DNA of 64,000 nt. Origin: Dehalobacterium formicoaceticum. GTDB taxonomy: Bacteria; Bacillota; Dehalobacteriia; Dehalobacteriales; Dehalobacteriaceae. The number at the start of each line of letters is the position of its first letter. Positions within the stretch are counted from its first letter, which is position 1. Below the pieces are notes generated by a model, which was given only the letters and a program-made list of their open reading frames with translations, made no database searches and had not been told where the DNA came from. Location: positions 2,610,501 to 2,674,500 of the forward strand of contig NZ_CP022121.1 of the NCBI RefSeq assembly GCF_002224645.1. Direction: 5' to 3'. This document shows positions 12,820-38,372 of this stretch, piece by piece. The position numbers were made by a program, and so were the translations under genes.

Positions 12820-13941
12820 TTGAAACGAAGTTTATTTAACATATTTATGATTATCGTCATGACCTTTGGAGTTGTTTCAGGAACTGCTTATGCAAGCCCG
12901 GAGGTAACGGCGAAATCAGCAATCTTAATTGATGCATCATCCGGCAGAATCCTCTTTGAAAAGAATGCCCATGAAAGGCTGCCCCAAGCCAGTACCACTA
13001 AAATAACCACTGCCCTTTTGGCTTTGGAAAATGCTGATTTGTCAAAACAGGTACAAGTACCGGCAGATTTTGTGAATCCCGGTGAATCCAATATTTACCT
13101 GGGGCCCGGTGAAGTCCATCCCATGGAAGATCTTCTTTACGCTCTGCTCTTAAAATCGGCTAATGATGCGGCAGAGGTCATCGCCATTGATATCGGCGGT
13201 TCCGTGGAGCAATTTGCTGAAATGATGAACAAACGGGTCAAAGAGATGGGTTTAAAAGATACCCATTATGTTAATCCCCATGGTTTAAATGATGAGAGAC
13301 ATTACACCTCAGCTTATGATTTGGCCATGATTGCCCGTGAAGCACTTAAAAATGAAAAATTCCGGGAGATTGTAAACACCAATAAATATGAGATTCCCTG
13401 GGAAGGAAACGAATATAATCGGGTTGCTTATAATACCAATCGCCTCCTCAAAACCTACGAAGGAGCAGACGGAGTGAAAACAGGTTTTACCCGACAAGCA
13501 GGAAGCTGTCTGGTAGGTTCTGCGACCCGCAATGGCATGCAATTAATTGCCGTGACCCTAAATTGCAATGGCATGTATCAGGAAATGACTGCCTTATTTG
13601 ATTACGGATTCCAAAACTATCAAAAGAAAGAGATTTTTGAAGAGAATCAGACAGCCGGGCAGATTCCTGTGAAAGGCGGCACCTCAAAAACGGTGCATGC
13701 AGTAGCAAAAGCACCCTTGGGAGTTGCTTTTAATATAAAAGATAAGGACCTCCTGGAACCAAGCATCTATCTGCCTGAGAAAATTAAAGCCCCAGTTAAA
13801 GAAGGGCAGCGCTTAGGATCGGCAGTAGTTAAAATTGATGAGAACACCTTTGTCACCACTGAGTTGGTTGCTGCCAATGATGTAGGGAAAAGCTCTTTTT
13901 TTGCTTATCTCTGGGATACCTTTATCAGCGCCATAATTTAG
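12820..13941 (+). CDS. D-alanyl-D-alanine carboxypeptidase, DacB/DacF type
   Basis: A penicillin-binding peptidase (S11) that trims peptidoglycan stem peptides. The N-terminus is a signal peptide with a likely cut after AYA (about residue 25). The catalytic triad motifs are present: STTK at residues 58-61, SAND near residue 115 and KTG near residue 214. A C-terminal beta domain and a hydrophobic anchor end the 373-residue protein. TTG 12820 is the start, with TAGGAGG 7 bases upstream. In Bacillus dacB is followed directly by spmA-spmB. Here those genes appear 3.3 kb later, so a sporulation (cortex) role is plausible. dacB versus dacF cannot be settled. Confidence 0.92.
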   Translation: MKRSLFNIFMIIVMTFGVVSGTAYASPEVTAKSAILIDASSGRILFEKNAHERLPQASTTKITTALLALENADLSKQVQVPADFVNPGESNIYLGPGEVHPMEDLLYALLLKSANDAAEVIAIDIGGSVEQFAEMMNKRVKEMGLKDTHYVNPHGLNDERHYTSAYDLAMIAREALKNEKFREIVNTNKYEIPWEGNEYNRVAYNTNRLLKTYEGADGVKTGFTRQAGSCLVGSATRNGMQLIAVTLNCNGMYQEMTALFDYGFQNYQKKEIFEENQTAGQIPVKGGTSKTVHAVAKAPLGVAFNIKDKDLLEPSIYLPEKIKAPVKEGQRLGSAVVKIDENTFVTTELVAANDVGKSSFFAYLWDTFISAII

Positions 13942-31480: not shown

Positions 31481-32996
31481 GGGAGTGTTTCATATTTCGT
31501 GTAATTGGCTATTCCCAACAAGGTTTAATACCTTGCAATAATGGGTAAAATTTTAGTACAGTCAGAAAGACAAGGCTCTGCCGGAGGGCAACCTGAGGGT
31601 CTGACTGGGGAACTCAAGCAATTGAAAAGGCGGTCTCAAATGGGGCTGCTTTTTCATTTTCTATTGCTTAGATTCCCAACCCGGAAAACTCCGGGAGTTC
31701 GGGGGCAGAGCCCCCGAGAAGTTATGCACCTTTGCTGTCCGTCAGACGTTCCTCAAAGAAGATAGACATCTGCCCCATTATTATTCCCCAATCGCGAATT
31801 GGTAAACTCCACTTTCTCTCAATTTCCATAATGGACAAGTAGATTGATTTTTTTAGTGATTCATCGCCGGGAAAGGTGGTTTTGGTTTTTGTAAATTTCC
31901 GTAACATCCGATGAAATCCTTCTACTGAATTTGTCGTGTAAATTAGCCTTCTAACATTCTCTGGATACTTGAAATATACCGAAAGCTCGCTCCAGTTATC
32001 TCGCCATGACTTTGCTATCTGTGGGTATTTTTTACTCCATTTCTCCCCAAATTCTTCAAGATGATAAAGTGCGTCATCCTCACATGGAGCCTGATAGATC
32101 ATTTTTAAATCCGCCATAATAGTTTTTAAATCTTTGTATGAAACATATTTTGTTGAGTTTCTGATTTGGTGGATGATGCAAAGCTGCTGCTCTGTTTTCG
32201 GGAAAACGCTGTTTATCGCTGTCGATAATCCGCTTAAATTGTCGTGGCATGCAATTAAAATGTCGTTTATGCCCCGATTTTTCATCTCATTGACTACAGT
32301 TGCCCAAAAGCTTGCACTTTCATTTTCGCTGATCCAAATACCTAATATCTCTTTTCTGCCTTCCATATTAATCCCTAATACTGTATAGGCACATTTGTTG
32401 ATGATCTTGGCATCCTTTCTCACTTTGAAGACTATTCCGTCAAAGAAGACTACAGGATATATGCTCTCCAATGGTCTTGATTGCCACTCCATTAGCTGCG
32501 GCATGATTTTGTCTGTAATTCGACTGATCAGAGCCGGTGATGCATCTACTCCATAGATATCACGCAGGTGGTCTTCTATATCACGGGTAGACATTCCTTT
32601 TTGATACATGGCTATCACTTGGTGCTCTAAATTATTTGATTTTGTTTGATATTTCTCAATCAATTGCGGTTCAAATTCACCATTTCGATCTCGTGGAACT
32701 TTTATTTCCGTCTTTCCCATTTGCGTTTGTAACGTTTTTTTGTTGTAGCCATTCCGGCTATTTCCGCTCAGATCCCCTGCTGGGCTATGCTTATCATATC
32801 CCAAATGCTCATCCATTTCTGCTTCCAGCATCTCTTCAATTGTTCCGCTGAACAGGTTTTTCAGCATGGAATGGATGTCCTCCATGCTACTGCATTCCTG
32901 TGCCAATAGTTTTACTAATTCATTTGCTCTTTCGTTCATTGATAACATCTCCTTTATGGTTATTGTTACCAATTACACGAAATTTTAAGCGTTCTC
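31481..32996 (-). mobile_element. IS256-family insertion sequence with target duplication
   Basis: The 1516-bp element is bounded by 28-bp imperfect terminal repeats (22/28 identical) that share ATTTCGTGTAATTGG exactly (31494-31508 and the complement at 32969-32983). The direct repeat TTTCCGTT occurs on both sides (31473-31480 and 32997-33004) as an 8-bp target duplication. It holds one transposase gene on the minus strand and about 210 bp of noncoding DNA with G/C-rich hairpins at the left end. The intact gene, matching ends and exact duplication point to a fairly recent insertion. Confidence 0.92.
31722..32939 (-). CDS. IS256-family (Mutator) transposase
   Basis: The 405-residue DDE transposase starts MNERANELVKLLAQ and has the Mutator layout: a Zn/DNA-binding N-terminal part with NSRNGYNKKTLQTQMG, and catalytic residues in VFFDGIVFKV (D), ACHDNLSGL (D) and TTNSVEGFHRMLRK (E). 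The frame looks intact. ATG 32939 has AAAGGAG 9 bases upstream; the in-frame ATG 32948 overlaps that site. Confidence 0.93.
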   Translation of the reverse strand: MNERANELVKLLAQECSSMEDIHSMLKNLFSGTIEEMLEAEMDEHLGYDKHSPAGDLSGNSRNGYNKKTLQTQMGKTEIKVPRDRNGEFEPQLIEKYQTKSNNLEHQVIAMYQKGMSTRDIEDHLRDIYGVDASPALISRITDKIMPQLMEWQSRPLESIYPVVFFDGIVFKVRKDAKIINKCAYTVLGINMEGRKEILGIWISENESASFWATVVNEMKNRGINDILIACHDNLSGLSTAINSVFPKTEQQLCIIHQIRNSTKYVSYKDLKTIMADLKMIYQAPCEDDALYHLEEFGEKWSKKYPQIAKSWRDNWSELSVYFKYPENVRRLIYTTNSVEGFHRMLRKFTKTKTTFPGDESLKKSIYLSIMEIERKWSLPIRDWGIIMGQMSIFFEERLTDSKGA

Positions 32997-33008: not shown

Positions 33009-33575
33009 TTACGCCATATTTAGTTTCCCTAATAAGAGCATACTGCCCATGGCTAAAAAGGATACAGAGATGCAAATTGAAATTTGATTAGCATCAAGAA
33101 CTAACATTACCAACAACATACAAAACTCTGCACCCAAGATGATCCTTGTTCGTTTTTTATATACTGCTCTCTCTATGTCGTCTAAGGGCTTGTTGCTATC
33201 CTCCAAGGGTGCCAAAATAAAGATTATTATTCCTGCAACAAATGCTAAACTAAAGCAAACTAAACTTGTCCATGAGATAAATTTAATTGCAAAAAGGACT
33301 GCAAAAATAAGTACTATGGAAAACAGATAGCATTGGATCTGAGTTTTGGCATGATAGCCTCCTGCATATGAGCGTAAGGGGAGATATGCCACAATAAAAA
33401 CAATGCTTTGCCAAACCATTCCGAAGATAAGCCCAATCATGAGAATTGTGATGACATTAGCTAACATAATCAGACCTTGTTCTAGACCATAGAAATATAA
33501 TTCTTTGTCATCTCTATTTATAATATTTACCTCAACAAGTTGATCTATGGCCTTGTTCAAAAAATTAGCCGACAT
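33009..33575 (-). CDS. agrB: AgrB-family peptide-processing membrane endopeptidase
   Basis: AgrB cleaves and cyclises the AgrD precursor to make an autoinducing peptide. The 188-residue protein has about five hydrophobic segments and the catalytic signature RSYAGGYHAKTQIQCYLFS, holding the essential His and Cys seven residues apart. Its ATG overlaps the stop of a 10-codon agrD remnant (TAATG), so it keeps the coupling of a normal agrD-agrB pair. The stop lies 5 bases beyond the target duplication of the IS256 element. It is the only full agrB here and would have to process the AgrD encoded 2.5 kb upstream. Confidence 0.92.
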   Translation of the reverse strand: MSANFLNKAIDQLVEVNIINRDDKELYFYGLEQGLIMLANVITILMIGLIFGMVWQSIVFIVAYLPLRSYAGGYHAKTQIQCYLFSIVLIFAVLFAIKFISWTSLVCFSLAFVAGIIIFILAPLEDSNKPLDDIERAVYKKRTRIILGAEFCMLLVMLVLDANQISICISVSFLAMGSMLLLGKLNMA

Positions 33576-33607
33576 TAAAATTTACGAAGGCTCTCCTTCA
33601 GAGCCAT
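33575..33607 (-). pseudogene. agrD remnant: 10-codon mini-ORF in front of agrB
   Basis: With a strong GGAAGGGGGG site, this frame reads MALKESLRKF then TAA. The first four residues match the start (MALK) and the last four the end (LRKF) of the intact AgrD at 36101-36250. The core with the cysteine ring is missing. The stop overlaps the agrB ATG. It is too short to make a signal but may still drive translation of agrB. Confidence 0.75.
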
Positions 33608-33653
33608 TACCCCCCTTCCAAAAATTTTTTTATTATTTTGACAAACCTATCCT

Positions 33654-33714
33654 ATCATAAAATAAGTTTTTGTACGGTAATTTGGTAAAATTGATATGTC
33701 TTTTTGGAAAAACT
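33654..33714 (-). promoter_or_regulatory. Promoter and LytTR-type operator of the agrB module
   Basis: On the minus strand two direct repeats, AGTTTTTCCA (33705-33714) and AATTTTACCA (33683-33692), are spaced 22 bp apart start to start. They are followed 24 bases later by a TATGAT -10 (33654-33659) with no good -35. This matches the operator before the intact agrD in sequence, period and distance. Confidence 0.72.
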
Positions 33715-33920: not shown

Positions 33921-35096
33921 TCATTCTACGGGTAAAATATGCAGATGTTGTTCGTGATTAATGCCAGCTTCACGTGTAATGTCATGTGTAATTACAGCCA
34001 AACGCTTACCATCGGGTGATAACGCTCCCGCGCTGAAGGATTCTCCATCCCTGTGGAAAACCATATCTTTCCGGGGGGACTCGCCATAAGATACTACGCC
34101 GGATACGCCGAAGGAATCTTCCTTGGATGGTTTTTTGCCCTCGGCAAAGACCCTGCCATCGCTTTCACCAATGATAAAAAGGCTGGGTGGTGTTTCATCC
34201 ACTGCCCATTCCATCAGTTCATAATTATCCTCCAGCACAGCCTGGGCATAACCGGAAGAGTGTAGTGCGGTGATCAATAGTTTGCTGGAAGGTGTAAAGG
34301 ATAAACTGAAAAATTCATGAATTTCAATATCTCTGTTACCCCTCAGTTCCTCCAGGGTTATCCTTTTACTCTCCCCGGAGGCAACATTATAAATCAGCAG
34401 ATGGTTATAATCGATCAGGTAGGCTAAAGTAGCACTGTCAAACGACCAATAACACTCCGTCGCCACAACGCCCCCGCCTACTACGATAAGCGAACGGTCT
34501 AATTCAATTACTTCCCCCGTTTTAAGATTATGCAATAATAACATCGCACCGTTCTGAAGATCATTCCCGGAATCCGGACCAAAGTTACCCACTTCAGCCA
34601 TGTAGGAGAGATCCGGAGAGAATACACGAAGATTATCATCCTCTTTTATAATCATATTTATTTTGGTCGGATCATCAAGATCAAAAGTAACGGCGCTTCC
34701 TTCGCCAAAGCCAATTACCTCCTCATTCCTGATGGGGATATACCGATTCCAATCCCAATGTGAACTAAAGGGATAATCACAAGGCAGCAAGGTCGCCTGC
34801 TGTTTATTGATATCATAGAGGTAAATATCCGTTTCACCCAGGTTTGACTGATGGGTTTCCAGGTTTATCTCTTCCTTTTTTTGACTGGCTAAAATCAAAG
34901 TATTCTCATCAAACCACAGACAGCCTTTGATAAAATTCCCTTCCCCCTCTTTAAAGAGAGGAGAAATATTCAACTCTACCAGTCCATCAACCTCTGAGAC
35001 GGGTGCGTCCACATCATTTGATGATTGGCAGCCAGACAACACTAGCATCAAAGCCAACATCCCTGCAAAAAAAGCAATAATACCTAGAGCTTTCAC
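33921..35096 (-). CDS. Lipoprotein with beta-propeller-like repeats
   Basis: The 391-residue exported lipoprotein has a signal peptide ending in the lipobox LSGC (Cys about residue 23). The body has recurring beta motifs such as WFDENTLILAS, DIYLYDINKQ, MLLLHNLKTGEV, LAYLIDYNHLLIYNVASGE and SPDGKRLAVITHD, resembling WD40/TolB-type propeller blades. I do not recognise a specific function. It starts at GTG 35096. It lies between the two agr modules and is a candidate target or passenger of the quorum-sensing system. Confidence 0.75.
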   Translation of the reverse strand: MKALGIIAFFAGMLALMLVLSGCQSSNDVDAPVSEVDGLVELNISPLFKEGEGNFIKGCLWFDENTLILASQKKEEINLETHQSNLGETDIYLYDINKQQATLLPCDYPFSSHWDWNRYIPIRNEEVIGFGEGSAVTFDLDDPTKINMIIKEDDNLRVFSPDLSYMAEVGNFGPDSGNDLQNGAMLLLHNLKTGEVIELDRSLIVVGGGVVATECYWSFDSATLAYLIDYNHLLIYNVASGESKRITLEELRGNRDIEIHEFFSLSFTPSSKLLITALHSSGYAQAVLEDNYELMEWAVDETPPSLFIIGESDGRVFAEGKKPSKEDSFGVSGVVSYGESPRKDMVFHRDGESFSAGALSPDGKRLAVITHDITREAGINHEQHLHILPVE

Positions 35097-35532: not shown

Positions 35533-36024
35533 TCAGTTAACCAAATTAGAATGAGAATAGCCGCAAATGCTGCAATAAACCAATCCTCTTGCTAACCCCT
35601 GCTCAGAGAAATATCCTTCCGGGAACCTGTCCACATATTCATTAAAAGGTCTCGGAGCAACATGAGTATAATACATAAGTTTTTCATCGTCACCTAAACC
35701 CTCAGTCAATATATCATCAACTTTATCCAAGTCCATAGCGTATATTTCTTCTTCGGTGTAACCCTTGCCCAAAAGCCCGGTTACCTGATTTCTATGAAAG
35801 CCGGTTTTTTTTGCTATTTCCTGAACTTTTAACTCACCTTCATCAAAGTCATAGATGTTTACTCCTTCACTTTCTTTCATCATATCATCCATCAGTTTTT
35901 TGTTGATCTCTTTCTTTGTCAGCCCATCGAAACTGCCTCCAGCTAATACGGATGTTGCTCCAAGCAACAAGCAAATAGTTAACATGATACTAACATACCC
36001 TGTAAACTTTGTTATCTTTTTCAT
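35533..36024 (-). CDS. Secreted protein, N-terminal part of a broken M23-peptidase gene
   Basis: The 163-residue product has a signal peptide (YVSIMLTICLLLGATSVLA-G) and a charged helical region with EIAKKTGFHRNQVTGLLGKGY. The C-terminus is cysteine-containing (VYCSICGYSHSNLVN) and runs into TGA 35533-35535. The frame beyond the TGA encodes M23-like sequence, so the gene was probably longer. The first part may still be made and exported. It occupies the place where agrB would follow agrD. Confidence 0.65.
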   Translation of the reverse strand: MKKITKFTGYVSIMLTICLLLGATSVLAGGSFDGLTKKEINKKLMDDMMKESEGVNIYDFDEGELKVQEIAKKTGFHRNQVTGLLGKGYTEEEIYAMDLDKVDDILTEGLGDDEKLMYYTHVAPRPFNEYVDRFPEGYFSEQGLARGLVYCSICGYSHSNLVN

Positions 36025-36065: not shown

Positions 36066-36101
36066 CTATTCCCTTCTCTTGACCAAAAAATTAGCTACCA
36101 C
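36066..36101 (-). pseudogene. agrB remnant (11 codons) after the intact agrD
   Basis: A GTG overlapping the agrD stop (TAGTG) reads VVANFLVKRRE then TAG. It aligns with the start of the full AgrB, MSANFLNKA, and the nucleotide context after the stop is also alike. The rest of agrB is missing, replaced by the secreted-protein gene. Confidence 0.65.
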
Positions 36102-36250
36102 TAAAATTTTCGAAGCTTATTCATATCTTTTGGCGGTTTGGGTTGATGAATAAAGCAGATGCAAGTTGTGTTGGCATTCATTGATGTTACCAGTAAAGCT
36201 AGACTCGCGACTACCCCGCCGAATCTCATAAGAAGATTCTTCAAAGCCAT
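36101..36250 (-). CDS. agrD: AgrD-like cyclic lactone autoinducer peptide precursor
   Basis: A 49-codon gene with GAAAGGAGG just before ATG. The N-terminal part is an amphipathic/hydrophobic leader (MALKNLLMRFGGVVASLALL). The core is NTTCICFI, followed by the recognition tail HQPKPPKDMNKLRKF. The layout matches clostridial AgrD (C. perfringens core ACLWFT followed by HQPEEPK). The predicted signal is a thiolactone ring C-I-C-F-I with a short tail (NTT or shorter); ring limits are by analogy. It follows the LytTR/GHKL pair by about 100 bases, in the same direction. Only remnants of agrB follow, so AgrB must come from 33009-33575. Confidence 0.85.
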   Translation of the reverse strand: MALKNLLMRFGGVVASLALLVTSMNANTTCICFIHQPKPPKDMNKLRKF

Positions 36251-36292: not shown

Positions 36293-36353
36293 ATCATAAA
36301 AATTGCCTTTGTGCAGAAAGGTGGTAAAACTAATATATTTTTTTGGTAAAACT
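36293..36353 (-). promoter_or_regulatory. Promoter and LytTR-type operator of agrD
   Basis: On the minus strand AGTTTTACCA occurs twice, at 36344-36353 and 36322-36331, exactly 22 bp apart. A -10 TATGAT (36293-36298) follows 24 bases after the second repeat, with no -35 consensus. Two helical turns between direct repeats is typical of LytTR-domain regulators such as AgrA and ComE. The distal repeat touches the sensor-kinase stop codon. Confidence 0.78.
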
Positions 36354-37657
36354 TAAACTTTTTCTTCCGCACTAAAATTACGGTTATAGATTAGCACATC
36401 AACACGAAAAGTATTGTCCGTATGCTTGATATTCATAGTACCGTTATATTTTTCAATAGCCTTCTTCACGCTTTCTAACCCAAAACCATGATTTTCTGCA
36501 TCTCTATGAGTAGTTTTCAATTTATTAAATCCATAATGTAATTTCTCTTGAAAAGGATTCGTTATATTAACATAAAGTACGTTTCTGTTTAATTCAACAA
36601 AAATCCCTATCCTTTTTTCTCCTGTGTATATAGATGTTGCTTCTATTGCATTATCAAGTAGGTTTCCTAAAATAGCTACCAAATCAAATGATTGAATACT
36701 CAGTTTTTCAGGAATTTTTAAATTTACTATTACATCTATGTCTTTTCTTTTTGCCTCGTATATTTTATAGTTTAGAATACTATCGACTTCCGCATTACCG
36801 GATTTAACGTATTCGTTGACATTGTTTATAAGATTAAAAGCATTTTGAAGATACTGCAATGACAAATCATTATTACCTTTTTCAATTAAAGTTTGTAATG
36901 CCAACATATGTTTTTTAATATCATGACGGAGTATCTTAATATTCTTAAGTGATTGATTTATGATTTTTAGCTGCTTAATATAGGCATTATTTTGTTGTCT
37001 CAATAGATTTTTCTCAGTTTTTTCCTGATAAGACTGTAGCAGAATATCATATAAATAAAAAACAAATACATTTATTATAAATAATATTGCAATACTAATG
37101 AAAATTTGAGGAAAATTTTCAGGATTGCTTTCTTTCATTAATATAAAAGTAGAAAATAGCGTTCCAAGCGGAATAATAAAAACTGCAATCCAATGCAATA
37201 ATGGGATATGGTATTCCGCTTTAATCATTTTAAGGTTTGAAATTACTAGAACAACAATGTAAGATAAAATCTTACTAATTATTTGAGCAAGAATTAATTG
37301 TAAATCAACACCTTTAATAAGTGCGTTCAAATTTAGTATGTTCAATATGATTATAGTAATTGTTTCAACAGAAATTAATATTGCATAAACATAAACAACC
37401 GCGGTCAATTTCATCTTCCAATTAGAGTAATAATTTAGCGTTAGCAGAAAAAACATGATTAAGTTACAGATGAGATTAACAATAGGGGTATTATGGGATA
37501 TATATATTATCCCAATCGCCAAAAAATAGAGTATGTATGATATCAATTCCACTTTTTTGTTTTTTGAACGTCGTTCAAAAAAAATATACATAAATCTATA
37601 AATGATATAGGTCCCAAAAATATTGGATAAAAAATAAATGATGTCATAATTATCCAT
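36353..37657 (-). CDS. AgrC-like GHKL sensor histidine kinase
   Basis: The ~434-residue kinase has six or seven N-terminal membrane segments (residues ~5-210). A coiled-coil region, the phospho-acceptor box LRHDIKKHMLAL and the HATPase N-box NLLDNAIEA follow. The C-terminus has the G-box-like HGFGLESVKKAIEKY. This is the AgrC/GHKL type that detects peptide pheromones. ATG 37657 is chosen, with GGAGG and AAAGG just upstream; it overlaps the regulator gene by 8 bases. A+T content is visibly higher than in the flanking core genes. Confidence 0.88.
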   Translation of the reverse strand: MDNYDIIYFLSNIFGTYIIYRFMYIFFERRSKNKKVELISYILYFLAIGIIYISHNTPIVNLICNLIMFFLLTLNYYSNWKMKLTAVVYVYAILISVETITIIILNILNLNALIKGVDLQLILAQIISKILSYIVVLVISNLKMIKAEYHIPLLHWIAVFIIPLGTLFSTFILMKESNPENFPQIFISIAILFIINVFVFYLYDILLQSYQEKTEKNLLRQQNNAYIKQLKIINQSLKNIKILRHDIKKHMLALQTLIEKGNNDLSLQYLQNAFNLINNVNEYVKSGNAEVDSILNYKIYEAKRKDIDVIVNLKIPEKLSIQSFDLVAILGNLLDNAIEATSIYTGEKRIGIFVELNRNVLYVNITNPFQEKLHYGFNKLKTTHRDAENHGFGLESVKKAIEKYNGTMNIKHTDNTFRVDVLIYNRNFSAEEKV

Positions 37658-38372
37658 TTCCTTTATCCTCCTGCCAGCGTTGCAATAGTCTGTCACTTAC
37701 TGATTTTCTATGCTGCTGGCTAATTGATAACACTGTATAATCAGATAATTTTACATTTTCATATTGATATTTAATCACATGGAAATAATTTACTAAATAA
37801 GATTTGTGAATTTGTATGAAGTCTTTGTTAATGAGCTGTCGTTCAATAACCGAAAGCTTTCCATAAAATTCATGAACTACGTCTTGGGTAAATATCTTTA
37901 CTTTTTTGCCGGAACTTTCGAAATATAAAATATCCTTTAAAGGTATTTTAGTTTGTGTGCGGCCAATTTTATATTCAAAAAAATGATTGCTTTTTGCCGC
38001 TAACTCAATAACTTTTTTTATGACTTTTTCTATTTCCTCTTCTTTAAGCGGCTTAATTAAAAAATTCAAAGGTCTTGTTTCAAAAAGCTCCATAGCATAA
38101 CTGTCTTTACAAGAAATAAATACAATTTGTGTATTTTCATTATGCATCTCATCCCTAATTTTTTTCCCTACCTCTACGCCATTTAGGATCTGAAGTTCAA
38201 TATCTAAAAAGATAAGATCAAAATATACTCCATTTGATATATATTGGAGTAGTGATTCCCCTGAATAAAATATTTCGATTTCCATTTTTCCTGTGCTGGG
38301 CTTGGACAATATATTTTCAATTTGAGAGCAAATTGTGTTATCGTCATCGCAAATAGCAACACGCAACATCAT
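37650..38372 (-). CDS. LytTR-family response regulator (AgrA-like)
   Basis: The 240-residue regulator has a receiver domain (VAICDDD, phospho-acceptor Asp57 in LIFLDIEL, and K in the LIKPL motif) followed by a LytTR DNA-binding domain (residues ~135-235: ILYFESSGKKVKIF ... FIQIHKSYLVNYFHV). It forms an AgrA/AgrC-type pair with the kinase immediately downstream and probably binds the paired repeats before both agr modules. A dyad ATATCC...GGATAT (38403-38421) lies between its -10 (38427-38432) and its ATG. Confidence 0.9.
   Translation of the reverse strand: MMLRVAICDDDNTICSQIENILSKPSTGKMEIEIFYSGESLLQYISNGVYFDLIFLDIELQILNGVEVGKKIRDEMHNENTQIVFISCKDSYAMELFETRPLNFLIKPLKEEEIEKVIKKVIELAAKSNHFFEYKIGRTQTKIPLKDILYFESSGKKVKIFTQDVVHEFYGKLSVIERQLINKDFIQIHKSYLVNYFHVIKYQYENVKLSDYTVLSISQQHRKSVSDRLLQRWQEDKGNG

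Follow-up and report, generated by a model that had tools for sequence, protein, structure and literature searches.

The agr locus and its short leading frame

The window, the whole 64,000-nucleotide stretch of the Dehalobacterium formicoaceticum genome that was analysed, contains an agr locus with the gene order agrA, agrC, agrD, agrB on the minus strand. This is the agrACDB type of arrangement, with two other genes separating agrD from agrB. Its features are given below, where copy 1 and copy 2 are the two related segments compared in the next section.

31722-32972, minus strand: IS256-type transposase gene, starting 36 bases after agrB
33009-33575, minus strand: agrB, 188 codons, intact open reading frame (Pfam AgrB, 148.7 bits)
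33575-33607, minus strand: agrD stub of ten codons, MALKESLRKF (from sequence, ribosome-site pairing and alignment with copy 1)
33610-33619, minus strand: ribosome site of the stub, GGAAGGGGGG (-12.1 kcal/mol to the 16S tail)
33654-33659, minus strand: putative promoter element of copy 2, a -10-like TATGAT aligned with its copy 1 counterpart
33683-33714, minus strand: AgrA-type direct-repeat box of copy 2, AGTTTTTCCAAAAAGACATATCAATTTTACCA (repeat comparison, genome search)
33921-35096, minus strand: open reading frame between the two copies, 391 codons, putative lipoprotein as judged by eye; no family match
35533-36024, minus strand: open reading frame after the agrD/agrB-stub junction, 163 codons, apparent signal peptide as judged by eye; no family match
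36066-36101, minus strand: mirror-image agrB stub, 11 codons (VVANFLVKRRE) and a stop, overlapping agrD as TAGTG (sequence, 3' block alignment)
36101-36250, minus strand: intact agrD of copy 1, 49 codons, MALKNLLMRF...TTCICFIHQPKPPKDMNKLRKF (TIGR04223, 45 bits against a cut-off of 19)
36322-36353, minus strand: AgrA-type direct-repeat box of copy 1 (repeat comparison, genome search)
36353-37696, minus strand: agrC-like GHKL sensor kinase gene (family match)
37650-38372, minus strand: agrA-like LytTR response regulator gene (family match)

The AgrB protein belongs to its family (PF04647) by its score of 148.7 bits and by H75 and C82, which are invariant in an eight-row alignment and which we take, from the Staphylococcus aureus protein, to be the catalytic residues. 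Its best full-length match within the class has 36% identity (L006), and its best named relative comes from an Anaerocolumna metagenome-assembled genome (59% over the best segment, 50% over the full alignment). The 3.77 Mb genome has four AgrB genes, of which the other three are at most 31% identical to that in the window. No other member of the genus Dehalobacterium was present among the genomes searched. Strains DMC and EZ94 of D. formicoaceticum share 98.6% ANI (PMC10344839). The agrB gene has no ribosome site of its own, the pairing there (-2.7 kcal/mol) lying at about the background median.

Immediately before agrB is a ten-codon frame, MALKESLRKF, whose TAA overlaps the agrB ATG as TAATG. 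On the minus strand it reads GGAAGGGGGGTA-ATG GCT CTG AAG GAG AGC CTT CGT AAA TTT TAA-TG, ending at 33573; the stub begins with the ATG at 33607 and agrB with that at 33575. Its length, coordinates, strong ribosome site and stop-start overlap had all been reported in an earlier, sequence-only reading of the stretch, and were confirmed. The pairing of its ribosome site (-12.1 kcal/mol) is equalled by 0.1% of 1200 random 20-mers; set against -2.7 kcal/mol for agrB and a background mean of -2.6, this gives the pattern of a strong site followed by none that is looked for in a leader. The site stands just 2 bases before the ATG, with the same spacing in the intact agrD, and for this reason the actual start may lie at codon three, which is TTG in the intact gene and a poor CTG in the stub.

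The stub is not an AgrD, because it lacks the cyclic-peptide core: it has neither the Cys nor the P-rich stretch following it that characterise AgrD (TIGR04223). A structural RNA switch was considered and dropped. Despite a 6-base inverted repeat within the stub (GGCTCT-GAAGG-AGAGCC), the leader RNA folds no better than its shuffles (z 0.06 over 106 nt, z -0.81 over 56 nt), so no such switch is claimed; Rfam gave no match in the window at gathering scores.

Two copies of one unit

The sequence-only reading had taken the frame to be an agrD relic of which the first four and last four codons remain. At the residue level these do match the intact paralogue (36101-36250, minus strand; MALKNLLMRF...MNKLRKF), with synonymous differences (TTG/CTG, CGA/CGT) and with TAG and TAA, respectively, as stops. 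Identities counted from the alignments of copy 1 with copy 2 are 20/23 in a 5' block comprising the ribosome site and first codons, 31/38 in a 3' block running from the last agrD codons into the agrB start, and 62/83 in a promoter block; each of the three scores was reached in 0/5000 dinucleotide shuffles. When the window was scanned in 15-base steps, these two sites alone gave the 3' block at a score of at least 30. A separate comparison of agrD with the stub alone gave weaker values, the score being reached by 5/2000 shuffles, or 21/2000 for the downstream half alone, because there the junction was split at the stop codon. The three aligned blocks establish descent of the stub from an agrD gene beyond chance, and the relic claim is well supported by them.

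The same junction can be recognised in copy 1. The intact agrD stop is followed by TAGTGGTAGCTAATTTTTTGGTCAAG, close to the agrB start TAATGTCGGCTAATTTTTTGAACAAG, and the encoded VVANFLVKRRE resembles the MSANFLNK of AgrB. This agrD therefore once had an agrB of its own, joined to it by the same stop-start overlap, so that both copies, copy 2 with its stub (-1) and copy 1 with its remnant junction, have an agrD stop at or near an agrB start. Upstream of each copy is a box of two direct repeats, AGTTTTWCCA and TTTTACCA, with a spacing of 22 bases, which at up to three mismatches occurs in exactly two places in the 3.77 Mb genome (reversed control, none). Its form and place make it a candidate target of the AgrA protein.

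Taken together, the promoter, ribosome-site and first- and last-codon matches and the agrB-like codons after agrD point to duplication of a promoter-agrD-agrB unit. In the simplest history agrD would have survived in copy 1, where agrB was lost but for its first codons, and agrB in copy 2, where agrD lost its middle; between them the split copies would still make up one complete agrD and agrB pair. Judged from its sequence, the locus is a degenerate, duplicated form of the agrA-C-D-B kind. The earlier reading had missed the duplication, with the full agrD 2.5 kb upstream of the stub and agrB, the mirror-image agrB stub and the shared promoter box. It had envisaged as a counterexample that the same strain might have a full agrD directly preceding agrB; this genome has no such arrangement.

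That reading had also proposed a single internal deletion and had seen selection in the preserved frame. The middle of agrD is indeed lost and the frame kept. One clean deletion may have caused this, but the two middle stub codons (Glu-Ser) match neither flank in the paralogue well. The copies differ in length by 117 bases, a multiple of three; this has a one-in-three chance without selection, so frame preservation by itself is a weak sign of the selection drawn from it.

Junctions and ribosome sites in relatives

Upstream regions were inspected at 40 AgrB loci outside this genome, among them 9 (L037-L045) from one set of 30 loci. An intact agrD stands just before agrB in 12, a broken agrD precedes a broken agrB in one (L100), and in the remaining 27 agrD follows agrB, lies elsewhere or was not seen. 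In 12/12 of the intact agrD-agrB loci the stronger ribosome site is that of agrD. Mean pairing to the 16S tail is -11.3 kcal/mol for agrD and -2.4 kcal/mol for agrB, against -2.6 (sd 2.8) for random 20-mers. Among the in-frame starts of each agrD the one that pairs best was used, a choice that favours agrD somewhat. The three strongest agrB sites among these relatives reach -6.0, -5.7 and -5.6 kcal/mol. In 10/12 of these loci the agrB start falls between -1 and +3 relative to the agrD stop, with a one-base overlap at five junctions, direct contact at one and a gap of 2 or 3 bases at four; the two others have gaps of 8 and 16 bases (+8 and +16). Genes for AgrB in the D-before-B arrangement thus generally have no strong ribosome site. 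In this subfamily agrB would be translated by ribosomes that complete agrD and begin again at the agrB start, which overlaps the agrD stop or lies near it.

The sequence-only reading had held that relatives whose agrB starts without such a mini-frame would count against it. They exist, but 12 carry a full agrD instead, and the one with neither agrD nor mini-frame (G330, at L037) has a strong site of its own before agrB (-12.0 kcal/mol) and therefore fits the leader idea. A detached agrB thus has a ribosome site either of its own, as in G330, or in the kept head and tail of agrD, as in the window, with one case of each. The split G330 locus (L067:7569-12203) has agrA-agrC-agrB on one strand; divergent from them, elsewhere in the locus, are two agrD genes that are almost identical, end in KLRKF and stand before different secreted-protein genes. 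It resembles the window in having agrB apart from agrD, in the KLRKF ending and in the secreted-protein gene after each agrD, and differs in the strong ribosome site that the G330 agrB carries itself, with no stub kept.

The same ten-codon stub was found at none of the 40 inspected loci. On the minus strand before a truncated agrB in a member of the same family (L008 in G002) there is a short frame MLMIVLRK (SD-ATGCTTATGATTGTGCTTAGAAAATAA, spelled SD-ATG CTT ATG ATT GTG CTT AGA AAA TAA), which may be another hollowed agrD; this locus is too decayed to be counted as a second case. The AgrD matches of that genome are two, one after an agrB and one standing alone.

The agrD tail reads RKF, RRF or SKF in 9/12 divergent relatives, which suggests either that this AgrB subfamily recognises the tail or that the junction constrains it.

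Comparison with known systems

Leader mini-ORFs for translational coupling overlap, stop on start, a downstream gene that lacks its own ribosome site. The stub shares with them the strong site, the short frame, the TAATG overlap and the weak downstream site. It differs from free-standing examples in being the recognisable remnant of a gene that was itself probably coupled.

As described in PMC3754575 and PMC8534292, Clostridioides difficile agr2 has the gene order agrA, agrC, agrD, agrB, and the likeness of the window to it is one of described gene order alone. In the same accounts agr2 is one complete four-gene locus, whereas the agrD-agrB pair of the window is divided between two degenerate copies that lie 2.5 kb from each other; of the two loci, that of the window alone has a ten-codon stub before agrB. 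The S. aureus system (agrBDCA) encodes the same four kinds of proteins in the reverse order, with agrB before agrD (PMC3754575), and therefore has no agrD-to-agrB coupling. In the portions covered of the literature on agrD/agrB coupling, gene order, remnants, duplication and reinitiation leaders, an agrD stub acting as a leader was not found, and a whole-word term search of PMC10327494 returned neither quorum, agr nor accessory gene regulator.

Why the stub may have been kept

We consider it likely that the stub is a hollowed agrD which, once a duplicated pair had undergone reciprocal loss, was kept as the ribosome entry for agrB. It reads as a coupling leader because the agrB site is at background, agrD has the stronger site in 12/12 relatives and the detached agrB of G330 has a site of its own; comparison with relatives thus lends good support to the proposal, made in the earlier reading, of a translation leader for agrB. 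Ribosomes would load at the strong stub site, make ten residues, stop at the TAA and restart on the overlapping agrB ATG. From these comparisons we infer that the stub is translated, that restart is the route to AgrB and that this role is the reason for its being kept; most likely it has survived because agrB itself lacks a ribosome site.

Alternatively, the whole of copy 2 may be decaying neutrally, the stub being a functionless passing stage and agrB due to follow. Signs of decay are at hand in the IS256-type transposase gene beginning 36 bases after agrB, in agrD-agrB units that are broken elsewhere (L100 of G440, where both genes contain stops) and in a third agrD relic in this genome. We nevertheless regard neutral decay as unlikely, given an agrB that is full length with all invariant residues, a promoter box and ribosome site that have been kept, and a genome with no other agrB of this type.

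A different possibility is that the peptide MALKESLRKF is itself active, for example by occupying AgrB through its agrD-like start and basic tail. The stub does unite both ends of AgrD, and since the basic tail is kept in 9/12 full-agrD relatives, AgrB may recognise it. With ten residues, however, it is missing the signal core along with most of the N-terminal helix, and no other case appeared in these searches, so an active peptide seems very improbable. No more credence can be given to the form of this idea in which the peptide, made together with AgrB, additionally sits on it and tunes its handling of the full AgrD from the other copy.

Six-frame lists are rich in short frames, but a chance frame unrelated to agrD is ruled out by the alignments with copy 1, where the score of every block (5', 3', promoter) was reached by 0/5000 shuffles, and by relatives that share the junction architecture; we attach a negligible probability to it.

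On the leader reading, two coupled genes would have split duplicate copies between them, with a short stub left at each shared stop-start junction. The locus would exemplify a gene hollowed yet kept since its translation feeds the next gene, and a duplicated two-gene unit dividing its parts. AgrB and AgrD would no longer come from one coupled message here, and the balance of enzyme and substrate could shift. Because agrB genes of the D-before-B type generally lack a strong site, annotators should not discard the short frames that precede them. The example is a clean one of modest general weight, in what is otherwise an ordinary quorum-sensing locus.

Other agr genes observed

The third agrD relic of this genome (L035:13765-13857; G000:C1 about 2271764-2271856) reads ...LIHQPKQRKGSEKLRKFW, with TGG at the stop position of the other copies, and is followed by a short, broken-looking signal-peptide frame; the agrB gene near it is a different one. 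Another agrB is present twice, at L035:4230-6187 and 12840-13472, in almost identical copies separated by about 7 kb; the second is preceded by a truncated kinase, and the genes between them resemble what is presumably an IS66-type element. G440 has three agrD-agrB units (L026, L097 and L100), the last with stops in both genes. Finally, agrD precedes agrB behind a kinase-sized gene in two fecal scaffolds labelled Bacteriophage sp. (L073 and L074), and in L074 the genes overlap as TAGTG with a GTG start.
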